A stretch of 64,000 nucleotides of DNA from Actinomyces glycerinitolerans (GTDB taxonomy: Bacteria > Actinomycetota > Actinomycetes > Actinomycetales > Actinomycetaceae): assembly GCF_900098745.1 (NCBI RefSeq), contig NZ_FQTT01000011.1, forward strand, positions 1 through 64,000. Direction: 5' to 3'. The position numbers and the translations under genes are program-made. Under the pieces are notes generated by a model. It ran no database searches. It worked only from the letters and a program-made list of their open reading frames with translations, and was not told where the DNA came from. Shown here in pieces: positions 202 through 48,110 of the stretch; position 1 is the first letter of the stretch, and each line of letters begins with the position of its first letter.

Positions 202-380
202 ACACCATCACTCTACCGCCCACCGGATTAGTGCCCCACAACCACCAACCCAACCGCACCACACCAACGAAAAACCCCGATCACCCCAGCGACCTGTCAG
301 GAGTCAGGTCTGATCGTCGACACCACGCCCACGCCCAGAGCTCGTGCTTTGGACCGGCGGCCCGCGGGGGCGGTGTCTTT

Positions 381-489
381 GCACGACCCTGGGCGACACT
401 GCACGACCCTGGTGCACATTCCACGACCCCGGGGTGGTCGTGCAACACACACCAAGGTCGTGGAACGCGGCCCCGGGTCGTGCAACACA
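381..489. repeat. Multi-unit inverted repeat built on TGCACGACC
   Basis: Three copies of a (T)GCACGACC or CCACGACC word (381, 400, 421) are followed by three inverted copies, GGTCGTGCAACAC (437-449), GGTCGTGGAA (456-465) and GGGTCGTGCAACAC (476-489). The arms can pair in several registers to make a long branched hairpin centred near 430. It lies outside any gene, 3' of the minus-strand chorismate mutase. The same design with other core words recurs elsewhere in the window. Possible roles are a terminator, a REP-like element or a protein-binding site; the sequence does not decide. Confidence 0.75.
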
Positions 490-601: not shown

Positions 602-679
602 CCCACGAACCGTCGCAGGAACTGCCGAATCGCCGACCGCAACACGCGAACCGTCGGGCGAGGGCGCGAACCGTCGGGC
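602..679. repeat. Short tandem repeat, core CGCGAACCGTCGGGC
   Basis: The 15-base word CGCGAACCGTCGGGC occurs at 645-659 and again at 665-679, a period of 20 bases, with a degenerate third copy (CCACGAACCGTCGCA) at 602-616. It is intergenic and has no evident coding role. Confidence 0.55.
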
Positions 680-16544: not shown

Positions 16545-16664
16545 ACGTACGATCTGCCGTCTCGCGTACGATTCCTGCTCTCACGCACGCGTTTTGGAGT
16601 ACCCCGACTCCCAGGCGCGAGGAAACCTCCAAAACGCGTACGCGAGACGGACACGCGTACGTCA
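16545..16664. repeat. Multi-unit inverted repeat built on CGTACG and CGCGTTTTGGAG
   Basis: The inner stem pairs ACGCGTTTTGGAG (16587-16599) with its exact inverse at 16627-16639. Outside it, ACGTACG-N5-CCGTCTCGCGTACG on the left is mirrored on the right through 16664, so each arm contains two or three related words. CGTACG occurs about five times. Same design as the repeats at 0.4, 25.9, 36.5 and 37.8 kb, different sequence. Confidence 0.75.
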
Positions 16665-25860: not shown

Positions 25861-25974
25861 GTTGGACCGCCCACGCCCCGTTGGACCGCCCACGCCCCGT
25901 TGGACCGCTGTAACCGGCGGCTACGGCGGTCCAACCGGGGAACAGGGGTCCAACGGGGGAACAGGGGTCCAACT
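25861..25974. repeat. Multi-unit inverted repeat built on GTTGGACCG
   Basis: The 19-base unit GTTGGACCGCCCACGCCCC occurs twice head to tail (25861-25879, 25880-25898), then a third partial copy (25899). After a turn at GCTGTAACCGGCGGCTACGG come three inverted copies, GCGGTCCAACCGGGG (25926-25940) and two GGGGTCCAAC words spaced 18 bases. It fills the convergent junction between the lipoprotein gene and recX. Outside 25681-25974 the gap (25652-26091) shows nothing else. Confidence 0.8.
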
Positions 25975-36086: not shown

Positions 36087-36168
36087 GTGCGTATTGAATT
36101 GTTCGAGGTACTGAGGCCGTACTCTGCCCATCAATACGATGGGCTGGTTGGCGGCTTTCAGCACTCGG

Positions 36169-36240
36169 CTGGGGTACCAGGACTCGAACCTAGAATGGAT
36201 GAACCAGAATCACCTGTGTTGCCAATTACACCATACCCCA
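36169..36240 (-). tRNA. tRNA-Gln (CTG)
   Basis: A 72-base cloverleaf: acceptor TGGGGTA/TACCCCA, anticodon loop TTCTGGT (anticodon CTG), T-arm CTAGG-TTCGAGT-CCTGG, discriminator G. The bases that follow are CCG, so CCA is not encoded. First gene of the minus-strand Gln-Glu-Glu cluster; gltX is 1.7 kb away. Confidence 0.93.
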
Positions 36241-36420
36241 AGAGATTGGTGCACCCGCGCGGCTTACGCCCGGGCAGCGATCGGTAATCTACACGGCCTC
36301 CCCGCCAACGCCAAGTCAGATCGCCGTGAGTGCAGCCACACCCTGTGCGTGCGCCCCGCCCCGGCCCGGACCTGTTCGCCACCACGGCGGGCAGCCACGC
36401 CCAGCGCGTGCGCCCCGCCC

Positions 36421-36506
36421 CGGGTCACAGCGTCCGGTGCGTAGTCCATGGCGCCACACCGCGCCGGGTCACAGCGTCCGGTACGTAGTCCATGGCGCCA
36501 CACCGC
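36421..36506. repeat. Two direct 42-base repeats, period 44
   Basis: 36421-36462 and 36465-36506 differ by one base; each begins CGGGTCACAGCGTCCGG and ends GGCGCCACACCGC. No gene is evident. The near identity suggests recent slippage duplication. Confidence 0.75.
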
Positions 36507-36528
36507 CCCGGCGCCCGCCCGCACGCAC

Positions 36529-36622
36529 ACGTGTTTGGCTCATGAACACGAGTTTTAGAGGTTTGCAGGCGCTGTACACGTGCAAACCTCTAAAACTCGT
36601 GTCAATGCCGAGAACTCGTGTA
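36529..36622. repeat. Palindromic element, copy 1 (upstream of the AbiEi-like gene)
   Basis: Perfect 22-bp arms (36546-36567 beginning ACACGAGTTTTAG, 36581-36602) enclose the 13-base loop GGCGCTGTACACG. Outside the arms further copies of the outer word occur: CACACGTGTTT on the left and AACTCGTGT on the right after CAATGCCGAG. Copy 2 at 37.8 kb has the same arms, loop and right flank in the same orientation, 1.3 kb away. Confidence 0.85.
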
Positions 36623-36758
36623 TGTCGACTACGGGCCGGAGCATCGGCCGGTCGCCGGTCTCTTCACCGGCGTCCACAGGTGCGGTTCGTGCACCCCTTG
36701 TCCACAGAACTCGCCGCCCCTGGTGGCACTGCGCACACCCCGACCGCAGGATCGGCGC

Positions 36759-37808
36759 ATGGACGCTTATCCGACGCCGCCGTCTCTCCCACCGGTCATC
36801 CTGTCGGCGGTAAGTAACTTGCCACATCTGCCGAGCCGCCCCGGCCTCATGCGCCTCATGCGTGGCGTGTACTTCAGCCCCTCCGAACAGGCCGAGGTGT
36901 GGCGGCAAAAACGCGAGGTCAGCCTGGCGCGTTGTCGGGGCGCATGGGAGACGCGCCGATCCGCCACTGCCCTCACTCACGAGTCCGCCGCGCTGGTACA
37001 CGGTCTGTGGGTGCGCGATGCCGAACCAGATGTTTGGACCGCCGTTCCCAGACGTCCCTCGGCACCTACCATCGTCCTGCCTGCGATGGAATTCCGCCGC
37101 GGAAGAACTCCCCGCCTAGCGCCGAGGGGTGCAGCTGTGCGAGCGGTGCACCTGCGCAGACGCAGACTGCAGATCCCGAGCGAGCAATTGGTCATGATCC
37201 AGGGCATCATGGTGACCGACCTCATGCGCACCGCGGTCGACTGTGCTTTCGATCTGCCGGCGTGCCAATCCATCACCATCGTGGACTCGGCCATGCGCGC
37301 CCTGGTCCGTCCGGATCGTCGCGACCCTGCTGGATCGCAGCATCGCTGGCAGGAGGTTCGCAACAGGTTTCTGCAGGCGGTGGAGGAACAGGCCGGTCGG
37401 AAGGGCGCCGTCCGTGCGCGGGCGGTCGCCCGAATCGCCAGCCCCTTCTCGGAGTCCCCAGGTGAGAGCGTGGTGCGCTGGCAGGTCGAGGCCCTCGGGC
37501 TACCCTCCGCGGCGCTACAGCAGCGGGTCGACATTCCTAGCCAGGGGCGCCACTTCTTCCTCGATCTCGCCTGGCCTGCGCTGCGGATCGCCGCGGAGTA
37601 CGACGGCCGCGAAAAATACACCGTTACGGGGACGACCTGGGATGAAAAGGTCCGCCAGGATCTCATCCAGGAGTCATCCGGTTGGACCTTCAAACGGTTC
37701 ACCGCCGAACACCTGCGCGACGCGGCCCGACTCTGTCAGGACGTCCTGAGCATGTTCCCGCCCGCCGTCGCCGCCAATGCCCGACGACGCCGGGGACTAT
37801 GGGACTGA
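36759..37808 (+). CDS. AbiEi-like N-terminal domain plus DUF559-type endonuclease-fold protein
   Basis: The 349-residue protein (ATG 36759) has an N-terminal region with RPGLMRLMRGVYF and VHGLWVRD, which resembles the winged-helix/antitoxin part of AbiEi-type proteins, a middle strand VTDLMRTAVDCAFDLP, and a C-terminal Vsr/DUF559-like domain: SPGESVVRWQVEALGLPSAA, RHFFLDLAWPALRIAAEYDG, REKY and WTFKRFTAEHL. Glu, Asp and ExD residues sit where PD-(D/E)xK nucleases place them. Such proteins are common in actinobacteria next to mobile or defence loci, but their activity is unknown. A longer frame from 36618 includes part of the flanking palindrome. No partner toxin gene is adjacent; gltX is convergent. 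Confidence 0.7.
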   Translation: MDAYPTPPSLPPVILSAVSNLPHLPSRPGLMRLMRGVYFSPSEQAEVWRQKREVSLARCRGAWETRRSATALTHESAALVHGLWVRDAEPDVWTAVPRRPSAPTIVLPAMEFRRGRTPRLAPRGAAVRAVHLRRRRLQIPSEQLVMIQGIMVTDLMRTAVDCAFDLPACQSITIVDSAMRALVRPDRRDPAGSQHRWQEVRNRFLQAVEEQAGRKGAVRARAVARIASPFSESPGESVVRWQVEALGLPSAALQQRVDIPSQGRHFFLDLAWPALRIAAEYDGREKYTVTGTTWDEKVRQDLIQESSGWTFKRFTAEHLRDAARLCQDVLSMFPPAVAANARRRRGLWD

Positions 37809-37818
37809 AGAGCCTGCA

Positions 37819-37920
37819 AGTACACGCGTTCACGTCGCGTACACGAGTTTTAGAGGTTTGCGGGCGCTGCGCACGTGCAAACCTCTAAAACTCGTGTCAA
37901 CGCCAAGAACTCGTGTACGT
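37819..37920. repeat. Palindromic element, copy 2 (downstream of the AbiEi-like gene)
   Basis: Perfect 21-bp arms (37841-37861, 37877-37897) with the loop GGGCGCTGCGCACGT, flanked on the left by GTACACGCGTT and on the right by CAACGCCAAG then AACTCGTGTAC. Arms are the same as copy 1 apart from one end base. It lies at the convergent junction with gltX, eleven bases after the AbiEi-like stop. Confidence 0.85.
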
Positions 37921-37945: not shown

Positions 37946-39520
37946 TCAGCCCAGGCGGGCACGCAGGGCGCGCAGGCGCGCCAGGGAGGACTCCGCCCCC
38001 AGGATCTCCATGGACTCAAACAGCGGCGGGGAGACCTGCCGGCCGGTGACGGCCACGCGCAGCGGCCCGAAGGCCAGACGCGGCTTGATCCCCATGCCGT
38101 CAACGATGGCGGCACGCAGGGCCTGCTCCAGCACCTCGGTGCGCCACGGCCCGGGCAGCGTCTCGAGCGTGGCGATGGCGGTGTCCAGCACCTGCGGGGC
38201 CGAGTCCTTCAGCCGGGACACGGCCCGCTCCTCGAGCTCCAGGTCGGCGTCGTCAACCAGCAGGAAGCCGAGCATGTCGCGGGACTCGCGCAGCAGCTGG
38301 ATACGGGTCTGGATCAGTGGGGCCGCCGCGGTGAGGATCTCCTGCTCGCGCTGCGTCAACTCGGCGAAGGAAGTGGCGCTGACCAGGGGACGGGCCGTCC
38401 AGTCGGGATCGGCCGGGTCGGGGTAGACATCCGCCAGGTAGGGCACCAGCCGGTTGCGGAAGTCCTCGCCCTCCAGACGGCGCAGGTGCTCGGCGTTGAT
38501 GGCCTCACACTTCTTCGGATCGAAGCGCGCCGGGTTGGGGTTGACGTCGCGGATGTCGAAGGCCGCCACCAACTGGTCGGGGGTGAACACGTCCTCGTCC
38601 TTTGACAGGGACCAGCCCAGCAGGGCCAGGTAGTTGAGCAGCCCCTCCGGTGCCATGCCGCGGAAGCGGTGAATGAGCAGGTTCGACTCCGGGTCGCGCT
38701 TGGACAGTTTCTTGTTCCCCTCCCCCATCACGTAGGGCAGGTGGGCGAACTCGGGTACCCGCTGCGCGCGCCCGATCGCCATCAGGGCGCGATACAGGAC
38801 CACCTGGCGGGGCGTGGAGGACAGCAGGTCCTCCCCGCGCAGCACGTGGGTGATGCCCATGGCGGCGTCATCAACGGGGTTGACGAGCGTGTACAGCGGG
38901 TCGCCGCCGGCACGCACCACCACGTAGTCGGGCACGGAGCCCGCCTTGAAGGTGACCGGGCCGCGCACCAGGTCGTTGAAGGTGATGTCCTCGTCCGGCA
39001 TCCGCATGCGCAGCACGGGCCGGCGCCCCTCGGCGCGGAAGGCCGCCTTCTGCGCCTCGGTCAGGTCGCGGTCATAGCCGTCGTAGCCGAGCTTGGGGTC
39101 CTCGCCGTTGGCGCGGTGGCGCGCCTCAATCTCGGCGGGTGTGGAGAAGGACTCGTACAGGTAGCCGGCCTGCAGGAGCTCGTCGGCGACCTGCCGGTAC
39201 AGCTCGGTGCGCTGAGACTGGCGGTAGGGGGCGTGCGGGCCACCCTTGGCCACTCCCTCGTCCCAGTCCAGGCCGAGCCAGCGCAGCGAGTCGAGGATCG
39301 CCTCGAAGGACTCCTCGGAGTCGCGGGCGGCGTCGGTGTCCTCGATGCGCAGCACGAAGGTGCCGCCGGTGTGCCGCGCGTACGCCCAGTTGAACAGGCA
39401 GGTGCGCACCATCCCGACGTGGGGCGTGCCCGTGGGCGAGGGGCAGAAGCGGACGCGGATCGGTGAGGATCCGGGGGCGGGCGGGGTGAAGGCGGGGGCC
39501 TTGGCGGTGTCGTCACTCAT
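37946..39520 (-). CDS. gltX: Glutamyl-tRNA synthetase
   Basis: A 524-residue class I synthetase. The HIGH box appears as [16 protein letters not shown] (about 34), the KMSKS loop as [10 protein letters not shown] (about 272), with LRIEDTD and [11 protein letters not shown] between. Length and anticodon-binding C-terminus are normal. It may charge tRNA-Glu and, if the amidotransferase pathway is used, also tRNA-Gln; both tRNA genes lie 1.7 kb away on the same strand. Confidence 0.94.
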
Positions 39521-43573: not shown

Positions 43574-45085
43574 TTAGTTCACGGCGTCATCCGCCTGTAA
43601 TGTTGGCGATCTCACGGCGTCGTCATCCCATACGTCACCGGGCAGCGGCCTGGGCAGGTAGGGGTTGTCGACGGCGACGAAGCGGACGTCCGCGGCGCTC
43701 TGCACCCCGGCGACGACCCGGGCGCGCTGGTCCTCCCAGTCGCGCAGCACGCCGACCGCCCACGGGGTCAGCGCCACCAGGGCGATCAGGTTCAGGACGG
43801 CGCCGATGCCGAGCAGCACGTCCGCCAGCGTCCACACGGTGGTCAGGGCGATCCCACCGCCGATGAAGGCGCAGGCGACGGCGGCCGCGCGCAGCGCCGT
43901 CGTCACCCAGGGCGTGCGGGTGAGGTAGTCCAGGCACACCTCCGCGTAGGAGAAGGCGCCCAGGATGGTGGAGTAGGCGAGCACGAACACCAGCAGCGTC
44001 ATCGGCCAGCTGGTCCAGTCCCCCAGCGTGGCCCCGATCGCGGTCTGGGTCAGGGTGCCGGAGACGTTTGGATCTTTGAGGCCGGTGACGCCGGGAGTGT
44101 ATACGGCGCCGTCGGAACGGCCCGCGATCAGGATGGCCAGGGCGGTGGCGGTGCACACGAACAGGGTGTCCACCAGCACGCCGAAGACCTGCACGAAGCC
44201 CTGCTGAGCCGGGTGGGCGACCGTCGCCGAGCCGGCGGCGCAGGCCGCCCCGCCCAGGCCGGCCTCGTTGGAGAACAGGCCGCGGCGCACGCCGTTGAGC
44301 AGTGCCGCGGTGATGCCGCCGGCGGTGCCGGCCAGGCCGGCACGCAGGTTGAAGGCGGCGGCGAAGATGTCGCCTATCGCCTCGGCGGCCTGCAGCGGGT
44401 GGGTGACGATGATGACCAGCACCAGCAGCAGGTACAGGGCCGCCATGATCGGGGCCAGCCACTCGGTCACCCGTACCACCGAGCGCAGCCCGCCCAGCAG
44501 CACGGGGGCGACCAGCACGGTGACGATGGCCGCGCCCCACCAGGGGTTGAGGCCGGTGGAGGCGCCCAGCGCCGCGGTCATGGCGTTGGCCTGCACCATG
44601 GGCATGGCCAGGCCGTTGGCCACCATGAAGACGACGGCGAACACGCCGCCGAGCACCGGCAGGCGCATGCCGCGGGCCATGTAGTAGGCGGGGCCGCCCC
44701 GGTAGGTGCCGTCGCCGCGGCGCACCTTGAACAGCTGCCCCAGGGAGGCCTCCACGAAGGCGGTGGCGGTGCCGAGCAGGGCCACCACCCACATCCAGAA
44801 CACGGCCCCGGGACCGCCCAGGACCAGGGCGAGTGCGACGCCGACGATGTTGCCGGTGCCCACGCGGCAGGCGAGCCCCACGGCGAAGGCCTGGAAGGAG
44901 GAGATGCCGCCGCGAGCGCCGGACCGGGAGCCGGCCACCGAGCGCATCATGGAGCCGAGGTGCCGCAGTTGCAGGCCGCGGGTGCGGATGGTGAACCAGG
45001 CGCCCGCGCCCAGCAGCAGCCAGATCAGGATCGTGCCGAACAGCAGATTGGAGGCGCCGGTGAGTAGTTCGTTCAGGGTGTCCAT
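43574..45085 (-). CDS. AGCS-family sodium:amino-acid symporter (copy 2)
   Basis: A 503-residue paralogue, signature ACRVGTGNIVGVALALVLGG, GGPAYYMARGMRLPVLG and LFSNEAGLGGAACAAG, the last carrying cysteines in place of the PNAA of its sisters. Tail DNPYLPRPLPGDVWDDD. Three bases separate its start from the copy 3 stop, so the two are co-transcribed. It is the most divergent of the four around the first half of the transport core. Confidence 0.9.
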   Translation of the reverse strand: MDTLNELLTGASNLLFGTILIWLLLGAGAWFTIRTRGLQLRHLGSMMRSVAGSRSGARGGISSFQAFAVGLACRVGTGNIVGVALALVLGGPGAVFWMWVVALLGTATAFVEASLGQLFKVRRGDGTYRGGPAYYMARGMRLPVLGGVFAVVFMVANGLAMPMVQANAMTAALGASTGLNPWWGAAIVTVLVAPVLLGGLRSVVRVTEWLAPIMAALYLLLVLVIIVTHPLQAAEAIGDIFAAAFNLRAGLAGTAGGITAALLNGVRRGLFSNEAGLGGAACAAGSATVAHPAQQGFVQVFGVLVDTLFVCTATALAILIAGRSDGAVYTPGVTGLKDPNVSGTLTQTAIGATLGDWTSWPMTLLVFVLAYSTILGAFSYAEVCLDYLTRTPWVTTALRAAAVACAFIGGGIALTTVWTLADVLLGIGAVLNLIALVALTPWAVGVLRDWEDQRARVVAGVQSAADVRFVAVDNPYLPRPLPGDVWDDDAVRSPTLQADDAVN

Positions 45086-45088
45086 GGG

Positions 45089-46594
45089 TCAGTTCCCCGT
45101 CAGTCGGGCGTCGTCGACGGCGTCGAGCCGGCCGTCGACGGTGGCGATGGGATCCTCCCACACGCCGGGCAGGGTGTCCCCCGGCATCAGCGGGTTGCCG
45201 TGGCCGACGAACACCGGGATGACGCCGACGGCGCGCTGGGCCTCGTAGTCGCGCAGGGCGCCGCGCACCCACGGGAACAGGCGCACGATCACCACCAGGT
45301 TGATCACGCCCAGCAGGCCCAGGGCGATGTCGGTCAGGGCCCACACGATCGGCAGGGTCAGGACGGTGCCGGCAAAGGCGGCGGCGGTGAGCAGAATGCC
45401 GAAGGCCTGCTCGGCGCGCCGCTCGCCGCCCAGGTAGTTGACGTTGACCTGGGAGTAGGAGTAGCAGCCGAGCACGGTGGAGAAGACCAGCACGAAGATC
45501 AGCACCACGATCGGCCAGGTGGTCCACTGCCCCAGGTGCTCGGCGACGGCCTGCTGGGTGAGGACGGCGCCGACGAGTCCCTCGTTGCCGGGCTGGTAGG
45601 TGTCGGTGGCCAGCAGGATCAGCAGGCCGGTGGCGGTGCACACCAGGCCGGTGTCCACGAACACGCCGAAGGACTGGATCAGGCCCTGGCGGACGGGGTG
45701 GCTGGTGGTGGCGGTGCCGGCGGCGTTGGGGACGGTACCCAGGCCGGCCTCGTTGGAGAACAGGCCGCGGCGCACGCCGTTGAGAACGGCCGCAAGCATG
45801 CCGCCCGCGGTGCCGAACAGGGCCTGGTCCCGGCCGAAGGCGCCGCGGAAGATCTCCCAGAAGACCGTGGGAATCTCACCGAGGTTCATCAGGATCACCA
45901 CGATGGTGACCAGCACGTAGGCCAGGGCCATCAGGGGTGCAACGACCTCGGTAACGCGGGCCACGGACTTCAGCCCGCCGAGCACCACCGGACCGGTCAG
46001 CAGCACCAGGGCCACGCCGACCATCCAGGGCTCAACCGTGGACACGGTGGCGTTGACGACGCCGGCCAGGGAGTTGGTCTGCACCATCACCACCGTGACC
46101 CCGACGCTGACGATGCACATGGCGGCGAAGATGGCGCCCCAGGTCTTGGAGCCGAGTCCGTTCTTGATGTAGTAGGCGGGCCCGCCGCGGAAGGTGAAGT
46201 CGCGGCCGCGCTCCTTGAAGATCTGGGCCAGGGTTGACTCGGTGAAGCTGGTGGCCATGCCGATCAGGGCGACCACCCACATCCAGAACAGGGCGCCGGG
46301 GCCGCCGGCGACGACGGCGAGCGCCACCCCGGCGATGTTGCCGATCCCGACGCGGGCGGCCAGGCCGACGGCGAAGGCCTGGAAGGAGGAGATGCCGCCC
46401 TGGGCGCCGGACCGGGAGGAGGCCACGGCCCGCAGCATGGAGCCGAAATGCCGCAGCTGCACGGCGCGGGTGCGGATGGTGACGTAGATGCCGACGGCGA
46501 TCAGCAGGGCGGCCAGGAAGTAGGTGTAGAAGATGTCGTCTACCTGGTTGAGGGTGTTCTCCAGGTTCGCGAGGCTCATGGCGGGTTGAGACAT
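45089..46594 (-). CDS. AGCS-family sodium:amino-acid symporter (copy 3)
   Basis: A 501-residue paralogue from the ATG at 46592-46594 (MSQPAMSLANLENTLN, with GGAG upstream); the longer frame to 46723 is not conserved. Signature AARVGIGNIAGVALAVVAGG, GGPAYYIKNGLGSKTWG and LFSNEAGLGTVPNAAG; tail GNPLMPGDTLPGVWEDP. Co-transcribed with copy 2 and probably copy 4. Confidence 0.9.
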   Translation of the reverse strand: MSQPAMSLANLENTLNQVDDIFYTYFLAALLIAVGIYVTIRTRAVQLRHFGSMLRAVASSRSGAQGGISSFQAFAVGLAARVGIGNIAGVALAVVAGGPGALFWMWVVALIGMATSFTESTLAQIFKERGRDFTFRGGPAYYIKNGLGSKTWGAIFAAMCIVSVGVTVVMVQTNSLAGVVNATVSTVEPWMVGVALVLLTGPVVLGGLKSVARVTEVVAPLMALAYVLVTIVVILMNLGEIPTVFWEIFRGAFGRDQALFGTAGGMLAAVLNGVRRGLFSNEAGLGTVPNAAGTATTSHPVRQGLIQSFGVFVDTGLVCTATGLLILLATDTYQPGNEGLVGAVLTQQAVAEHLGQWTTWPIVVLIFVLVFSTVLGCYSYSQVNVNYLGGERRAEQAFGILLTAAAFAGTVLTLPIVWALTDIALGLLGVINLVVIVRLFPWVRGALRDYEAQRAVGVIPVFVGHGNPLMPGDTLPGVWEDPIATVDGRLDAVDDARLTGN

Positions 46595-46649
46595 CGGGGC
46601 TCCTTGCGGGTGGGGCTCTAGGGGGCGGTGGCTGGGTGGCGGTAGGCGG

Positions 46650-48110
46650 TCAGTTCCAAACGTCGCCGGGCACGTCGGCCGGCAGGTGGGGGTTGTCGTG
46701 TCCAACGAAGACGGGCTCTTCAACCCCGGCGCGGCGCTGGGCCTCCCAGTCGCGCAGGGCGCCCACCCCCCACTTGGACAGCAGGATCAGGGCGACGAGG
46801 TTGGTCACGGTCATCACGGCCATGGCGATGTCGACGGCGTTCCAGACGACGTCGAGCGACAGCACGGCGCCGGCGGTGGCGGAGACGACTGAGACCACGC
46901 GCACCGTCCAGGTGGCCCAGGTCTTGCCGCCGGTCAGGAAGGACATGTTGGTGTCGGAGTACACGTAGGCGGCGATGATCGACGAGTAGGCGAGTACGAA
47001 GATCAGGACCGCGATGGGCAGGATGGTCCAGCCGCCCAACTCGTGGGAGACGGCCATGATCGTCAGGGTGGAGGGGTTGGCGCCGTTGGCGCCCCAGACC
47101 TCGGGTCCGGCGATGAGGATGACGAAGGCGGTGGCGGTGCACACCACGATCGTGTCGATGAACACGCCCAGGGACTGGATCAGGCCCTGCTGCACCGGGT
47201 GGGCGACGGTGGCGGTGGCGGCCGCGTTCGGGGCGGTGCCCTGGCCGGCCTCGTTGGAGAACAGGCCGCGCTTGGTGCCGTTGACGACGGCGGCGAGGAT
47301 GCCGCCGCCCAGGCCACCGACCAGCGGCTGGGGGGCGAAGGCGGAGGAGATGATCAGGCCGAGCACCTCCACGAAGCGGCCCAGGTGCATCAGGCAGATG
47401 ATGAACACCAGGACGATGTAGATGCCCGCCATGATCGGGGCCATCCACTCGGTCACGCGGGCGACGGTGCGGATGCCGCCGAAGATCACCATGGCGGTGA
47501 ACACGAAGACCAGGGCGGCGATGACCAGCTGGGCGGCGGAGAAGCCGCCGAAGCCCTCGATGGCGGAGCCGTCGTCGCCGATCGCGCCTAGAAGCGTGCC
47601 GGCCACGGCGTTGGACTGCACGGAGGTGATGATGAAGCCGCAGGTGACCAGGGTGATGACGGCGTAGACGCCGGCCAACGCGGGGCTGCCCACGCCGGAT
47701 CGCATGTAGTAGGCGGGACCGCCGCGGAAGGAACCGTCGTCGGCGCGGACCTTGAAGATCTGGGCGAGGGTGGCCTCGAAGAAGGCGGTGGCCATGCCCA
47801 CCAGGGCCACCACCCACATCCAGAACACGGCGCCGGGCCCGCCCATGAGCAGGGCGGCGGCCACGCCGAAGATGTTGCCCACCCCCACGCGCGCGGCCAG
47901 GGAGATGGCGAAGGCCTGGAAGGAGGAGATGCCGCCGTGAGCGCCGGCGCGCGAGGAGCTCACCGCCCGGAACATGTTGGGCAGGTGGCGCACCTGGACG
48001 GCGCGGGTGCGGATCGTCAGGAACAGGCCGGTGCCGACCAGCACCCACATGGTGATGTGGGCGGTGATCCAGTCGGCGATCGAAAGCAGACTGTCGGCGA
48101 GAGCTTCCAT
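46650..48110 (-). CDS. AGCS-family sodium:amino-acid symporter (copy 4, promoter-proximal)
   Basis: A 486-residue paralogue, signature AARVGVGNIFGVAAALLMGG, GGPAYYMRSGVGSPALA and LFSNEAGQGTAPNAAA; tail DNPHLPADVPGDVWN. First of the four in transcription order, 55 bases before copy 3. The 133 bases upstream (48111-48243) should hold the promoter; I see no riboswitch there. Confidence 0.9.
   Translation of the reverse strand: MEALADSLLSIADWITAHITMWVLVGTGLFLTIRTRAVQVRHLPNMFRAVSSSRAGAHGGISSFQAFAISLAARVGVGNIFGVAAALLMGGPGAVFWMWVVALVGMATAFFEATLAQIFKVRADDGSFRGGPAYYMRSGVGSPALAGVYAVITLVTCGFIITSVQSNAVAGTLLGAIGDDGSAIEGFGGFSAAQLVIAALVFVFTAMVIFGGIRTVARVTEWMAPIMAGIYIVLVFIICLMHLGRFVEVLGLIISSAFAPQPLVGGLGGGILAAVVNGTKRGLFSNEAGQGTAPNAAATATVAHPVQQGLIQSLGVFIDTIVVCTATAFVILIAGPEVWGANGANPSTLTIMAVSHELGGWTILPIAVLIFVLAYSSIIAAYVYSDTNMSFLTGGKTWATWTVRVVSVVSATAGAVLSLDVVWNAVDIAMAVMTVTNLVALILLSKWGVGALRDWEAQRRAGVEEPVFVGHDNPHLPADVPGDVWN

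Follow-up and report, generated by a model that had tools for sequence, protein, structure and literature searches.

We found that a nuclease-fold gene of Actinomyces glycerinitolerans, located in the window analyzed here (the whole stretch of 64,000 nucleotides), lies between two palindrome copies; this palindrome is also dispersed over the genome and is privately paired with its gene. The gene and its brackets are present or absent together among related genomes, occupy another location in one of them and are inverted in another, and a concerted change of the element was observed in one species. We consider it slightly more likely than not that the genome has six or more gene-plus-palindrome systems in parallel, this gene being part of one of them, and that the nuclease family spreads its private palindromes.

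The two bracketing elements, A and B (Table 1), are direct repeats of 96 nt each that lie 1295 nt apart and are 84% identical over 109 nt. The initial annotation had described same-orientation elements with perfect arms of 21-22 bp, a common GGCGCTG loop word, and the outer word AACTCGTGT, all of which were confirmed by coordinates (the outer word lies at 36613-36621 in element A and at 37908-37916 in element B). It had missed a second outer box, ACACGnGTT, at 36527-36535 and 37822-37830, respectively. Four boxes of the ACACGnGTT type are present in rigid spacing, the boxes within each half lying 19 nt apart, and the loops are 13-15 nt long. As single strands, elements A and B have folding energies of -34 and -35.5 kcal/mol (z of -9.3 and -8.7), and none of 200 dinucleotide shuffles folded as well. 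In an Rfam search, tRNAs alone reached the threshold. A gap of 136 nt separates the end of element A from the start codon of the nuclease gene, and element B begins just past the stop codon. The GTG at 36618 was considered as a start and is less likely than the ATG at 36759, because the DAYPTPP start is conserved among the orthologs. Following the label in the initial annotation, we take the ORF at the right edge of the interval to be gltX (glutamyl-tRNA synthetase). Additionally, a 44-nt tandem duplication (36415-36502) lies immediately to the left of element A, and three diverged direct repeats at 44124-47357 (248 nt, 69-74%, about 1.49 kb apart) are probably tandem paralogous genes.

Table 1. 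Features of the window, with positions counted from its first nucleotide.
Feature	Position	Strand	Remarks
Solo, L025-type palindrome	380..486	-	type that brackets paralog C6:69654
Partial solo, L026-type palindrome	606..676	+	type that brackets paralog C7:510242
Degenerate solo copy, window-type element	16558..16662	+	about 35 bits
Solo, L027-type palindrome	25861..25973	+	type that brackets paralog C14:275263
tRNA-Gln (CTG)	36167..36240	-	left edge of the variable interval
Element A	36527..36622	+	22-bp perfect arms 36546-36567 / 36581-36602; loop 36568-36580
Nuclease-fold gene, 349 aa	36759..37808	+	ATG start; sole gene between elements A and B
Element B	37822..37917	+	second copy; 21-bp perfect arms 37841-37861 / 37877-37897
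gltX (presumed), 524-aa ORF	37946..39520	-	right edge of the variable interval

The palindrome occurs at many places besides the nuclease gene. A search with the 21-nt arm, allowing up to three mismatches, gave 14 matches per strand of the 3.7-Mb genome, whereas the reversed pattern gave none. Using a sequence-only model built from 15 copies, which align without gaps, we located the window-type element at no fewer than 23 genome places, including 22 with a best-strand E of 3.3e-8 or lower, among which are both brackets; this number is a lower bound, as 150 of the 1149 first-look candidates were scored. Thirteen of the 20 clear solos were inspected for their context and one was dropped as unclear. 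Relative to the nearest crudely called ORFs, the remaining 12 stood in convergent (5), divergent (4) or tandem (3) settings, indicating no promoter bias. The consensus of the 15 aligned elements contained no GTAG tetranucleotide. Covariation between the arms did not exceed that of shuffles among the window-type copies, and one arm position was unpaired in 8 of the 15. The lack of covariation suggests that paired half-sites in duplex DNA are more likely to be recognized than a strict hairpin.

Seven genes of the nuclease family were identified in the genome of A. glycerinitolerans (eight matches, two of which fall in one gene). Six of them are bracketed by pairs of palindromes in direct repeat, and these six palindromes are mutually unrelated in sequence. 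Genome-wide counts in this genome cover two of the types, the window-type and the L023-type elements, the latter being found at 23 places, two brackets included. For the other four types, solos are present within 324 kb of sequence from the same genome, three of these types being represented inside the window. The seventh paralog, C9:466177, has no bracketing pair, and the same holds for its orthologs in A. succiniciruminis (G066), G064 and A. ruminis (G012), which are 85-99% identical in DNA. Internal stop codons were noted in two of the four copies of this unbracketed group (L022, L133/L157, L110 and L197), one in A. succiniciruminis and two in A. ruminis. Furthermore, same-orientation pairs of L023-type elements surround frames unlike the nuclease at L300 (C14:347186 and 348382) and L301 (C7:390495 and 391480), and these frames are possible cargo.

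The bracketing extends well beyond this genome. We compared the 700 nt before each family gene with the 700 nt after it, using a threshold score of 30. Of the 35 loci in the genus set, 28 reached this score, compared with 45 of 1190 mismatched flank pairs. In the wider set from the genome collection, which overlaps the genus set and comprised 80 loci with five dropped for short flanks, the score was reached by 52 of 75 loci, compared with 76 of 5550 mismatched pairs; the loci are not independent, as several share a species or are closely orthologous. No pair was found at this score for 7 of the 35 and 23 of the 75 loci, respectively. Within the wider set, 42 of 50 Actinomyces loci were paired, as were 10 of the 25 others, including one (L227) that resembles simple sequence. 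Palindromes were detected in 44 of the 52 paired loci and in 4 of 260 control windows. Among random gene-sized windows of A. glycerinitolerans sequence, 10 of 400 scored at least 30, four of which fell on paralog units and one on the tandem repeats of the window. Solos also accompany brackets in more distant genomes, with genome-wide counts of two brackets and five solos in Arthrobacter bambusae and two brackets and seven solos in Enemella evansiae. These results strongly support the view that palindromes go with the gene family, on a far wider scale than the initial annotation had proposed. The initial annotation had also regarded repeats common at unrelated genes as a sign against its proposal. 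Such repeats are literally there, but the scattered copies prove to be part of the pattern.

Relatives of the nuclease (E of 1e-60 or better) were found in 28 of 49 genomes of the genus. Orthologs with at least 75% identity were present in five, namely A. glycerinitolerans itself (G000), A. succiniciruminis (98%), A. ruminis (91%), A. ruminicola (G063, 79%) and G019 (75%). There is one ortholog of the window gene per genome, and in all five it sits between two elements. The element was present in eight of the 49 genomes, comprising these five (44, 51, 65, 40 and 22 match rows in the order given, mostly two rows per place) and three without an ortholog at this level, G029 (16 rows), G064 (6) and G005 (3); the highest row numbers thus belong to the genomes with the ortholog. 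Outside the genus, the window-type element was found in none of 22 genomes, which formed part of a search of 59. Seven of the eight element-bearing genomes belong to a close clade with a gltX stretch 87-100% identical, G019 lying outside it at 78%, and therefore the co-occurrence of gene and element partly reflects shared descent.

The interval between tRNA-Gln and gltX was compared at 30 loci from the 49 genomes, of which four hold the unit, two show no tRNA, and 24 have both ends. These 24 unit-less intervals are 156 to 1278 bp long, and some carry an unrelated gene; all lacked the nuclease gene (best tblastn E of 0.59), and no element was detected in any of them at an E of 0.1. The unit occupies the same place as in the window in A. 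succiniciruminis and A. ruminis, stands inverted in the same interval in A. ruminicola, and lies about 1.04 Mb away from gltX in G019. The site of the unit in G019 measures 1576 bp, compared with 86 bp in G064, and contains an unrelated gene, read as a cation-efflux type, in G029, G005 and A. ruminicola; within the stretch compared, none of seven genomes has an element there. The joint absence from all 24 intervals, together with the move in G019 and the inversion in A. ruminicola, supports the earlier idea that the gene and both elements are gained or lost as one unit. An empty site retaining one element, which the initial annotation had anticipated for a mobile unit, was seen neither at the gltX site nor at the G019 unit site. 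Comparisons of occupied and empty sites revealed neither a target-site duplication nor a clean junction, the empty sites differing by extra flanking bases, and no split host gene is evident around the unit, which stands between tRNA-Gln and gltX. The tRNA-Gln to gltX interval (L237-L263) varies by species, being empty or containing either a secreted-looking gene or the nuclease unit.

Solos also vary in presence. The solo at C7:219589 is missing in A. ruminis, where the distance between the landmarks is 29 bp versus 230 bp. Likewise, an L025-type solo with about 0.3 kb of sequence is present in A. glycerinitolerans (L013, 5200-5760) and missing in A. succiniciruminis (L143), between copies of the short repeat TTCGCGCCGATAA.

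Each form of the palindrome follows its own form of the nuclease. Among 50 palindromic units, the element was shared in all 35 pairs with a protein identity of at least 75% and in none of the 1190 pairs below that value. This pairing alone is no proof of function, because the brackets are linked to the gene they enclose. The scattered copies in G019 also track the form of the local gene, as all seven elements examined there (two brackets and five of nine solos) carry the form GCATG[AT]G[TC]TC[CT]GGCG, which occurs in none of 22 copies in A. glycerinitolerans. Additionally, the loops of some elements are inverted between species. Between orthologous sites of A. glycerinitolerans and A. succiniciruminis, the loop was inverted at 3 of 14 sites (both bracketing copies included, with no mismatch) and not at the other 11, after L013/L136 had been dropped as non-orthologous and one pair for unequal loop length. 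One of six counted pairs was inverted in A. ruminis (three more were dropped for loop length) and neither of two in G029, while A. ruminicola and G019 are too diverged for judging. These inversions are compatible with extrusion or strand switching at the palindrome and are not proof of protein action. Small inversions at hairpins may also originate by template switching. Loop inversion was set aside as proof of hairpin cutting, since template switching could also give rise to it.

The nuclease protein consists of a Vsr/EDxHD-like nuclease domain (residues of about 231-337) preceded by an AbiEi/MenT-like part (residues of about 18-230). An AlphaFold2 model built from 22 family sequences had a mean pLDDT of 90.3. 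A Foldseek search of this model against the PDB gave nothing at an E of 0.001 or lower, and the structural reading comes from VIA-align, a re-examination of Foldseek's own match list. By this method, residues 232-337 resemble the homing endonuclease I-Bth0305I (3r3p; Z of 11.9, with 96 of its 97 residues aligned at an rmsd of 2.5) and Vsr (Z of 9.7). Residues 52-230 resemble MenT1 (Z of 8.8; 7-9 for the MenT/TglT toxins overall), and the N-terminal part more weakly resembles the AbiEi-like Rv2827c (1zel, Z of 5.4). Eight residues, E235, D268, E279, D281, G282, K285, E295 and R298 (numbered without the start Met), are invariant in all 22 members. Position 285 is usually His in DUF559/Vsr relatives, where the nuclease described here has Lys. 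An invariant His or Tyr, which an HUH motif or a catalytic tyrosine would require, was absent from the 27 invariant columns of the 22 members.

Pfam profiles support the window protein weakly. PF18741 (MTES_1575) matched 19 of the 22 members and PF04480 (DUF559) matched 10 at an E of 0.1 or lower, the best E for PF18741 being 3.6e-6; the window protein itself scored 13.8 bits against PF18741 (13.5 with the longer start), below the gathering cut-off of 38.2. Weak matches were also obtained for Pfam AbiEi_1 and for NCBIfam DUF559 (three of 22 members each) and for the PADLOC AbiEi profile with the window protein (best E of 0.0018). In viral contigs, 51 pattern matches included no relative of the family, and plasmids gave neither a protein match nor a DNA match.

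Bacteria commonly carry scattered palindromes, and those studied best rely on HUH transposases. The closest known analogue in layout is the REPtron, in which a transposase gene specific to a repeat has copies of that repeat on both sides (PMC3733652); CGTC repeats are reported there as lacking a dedicated transposase. As in the system described here, REPtrons and TIRtrons combine a gene flanked by palindromes with further palindromes scattered between genes, may include several gene-specific repeat families per genome, and are suspected of non-autonomous spread (PMC3733652 and PMC8266576). Unlike REPtrons (REP with RAYT/TnpA-REP), however, the system here has no GTAG in the window-type consensus and no HUH/tyrosine enzyme. 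Its brackets are direct repeats of at least 55 aligned nt, often with iterated boxes, compared with REPs of 20-40 bp, and its enzyme joins a Vsr/EDxHD fold to an AbiEi-like part.

The catalytic-domain fold is common to this nuclease, the EDxHD homing endonuclease I-Bth0305I and Vsr, and the long target of I-Bth0305I, with contacts over nearly 60 bp (PMC3943268), is a likeness to the long palindrome. In contrast to EDxHD homing endonucleases, the gene here appears to be intergenic rather than in an intron or intein, is bracketed by palindromes, and encodes an AbiEi/MenT-like N-terminal part. AbiEi antitoxins of type IV AbiE systems share a weak sequence match and a fold resemblance with that part, and AbiEi binds inverted repeats (PMC3985639). 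Unlike AbiE systems, the locus has no adjoining AbiEii gene (a single gene stands between tRNA-Gln and gltX), has an extra nuclease domain, and has palindromes both flanking and scattered. DUF559/MTES_1575 proteins (PF04480 and PF18741) are related through the family matches given above, the window protein lying below the PF18741 cut-off, and no association of them with palindromes appeared among the matches listed in titles and abstract beginnings of the open-licence literature. Within that same scope, which does not prove absence from print, no description of the nuclease-palindrome association was found. Because the GTAG and HUH/tyrosine marks are absent and no description appeared among the literature matches listed, we regard the system as new as a whole, with a known analogue in its layout.

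Judging from the domains and the architecture, the N-terminal AbiEi-like part would bind the half-sites that recur in its own palindrome. The nuclease domain may then nick or cut at the palindrome, probably when it is extruded or single-stranded during replication; such an action of the nuclease on palindromes is what we infer. Repair or recombination would copy the palindrome alone, as a passenger, to new intergenic places, as the scatter and the presence/absence patterns suggest, and more rarely the whole palindrome-gene-palindrome unit may be copied to a new intergenic place.

The same palindromes might instead form an autoregulatory operator, bound by the AbiEi-like part to control its own gene, with the scattered copies as a regulon or inert sites and the nuclease acting elsewhere. 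AbiEi represses its own promoter via inverted repeats (PMC3985639). Bracketed units have an upstream copy, as does the window gene with element A 136 nt before its start codon, and the rigid half-site spacing without covariation suits dimeric binding to double-stranded DNA. We nevertheless consider an operator unlikely, as it leaves unexplained the second copy just past the stop codon, the scatter of whole 96-nt elements with solos that show no promoter bias, and the units at different places. Solos could also be scars like solo LTRs, if the unit is mobile as a whole and its direct-repeat palindromes recombine with each other, deleting the gene and leaving a single palindrome, so that each solo marks a lost unit. 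The direct orientation of the two copies agrees with this possibility, as do the genome-wide counts, in which each of the two types covered has one unit and about 20 solos. Against it, orthologous solo sites showed a solo or no element (as at C7:219589 in A. ruminis) and never a full unit, which is a partial test because most sites were chosen for holding an element; moreover, no relative retains a single element at the two unit sites examined, and the window-gene orthologs number one per genome. Scars are thus, in our view, quite unlikely.

The least probable of these alternatives, and a very unlikely one, is a defence or addiction module whose nuclease spares its own palindromes or is titrated by them, the solos being self-markers and their dispersal a by-product. 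The combination of AbiEi-like and restriction-type domains (the weak PADLOC AbiEi match at an E of 0.0018 and MTES_1575 in 19 of 22 members at an E of 0.1 or lower) would fit such a module, but there is no second gene, and hence no AbiEii partner, between elements A and B, and the family was not found in viral contigs and had no protein match in plasmids.

Returning to a nuclease that spreads its palindrome, we see about an even chance that these units constitute a new actinobacterial class of self-spreading DNA, in which a Vsr/EDxHD nuclease with an AbiEi-like reader mobilizes its own long palindrome, the palindrome is switched below about 75% protein identity, and dozens of pairs exist per genus and six or more per chromosome. 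A whole gene family from an enzyme class other than the HUH transposases is linked here to private palindromes, and the palindrome changes abruptly once protein identity drops below about 75%. Should the nuclease indeed spread the palindrome, the family would solve the problem that HUH transposases also solve, and independently of them. It would then also offer a natural collection of protein-DNA pairs from which the rules of site choice could be learned.
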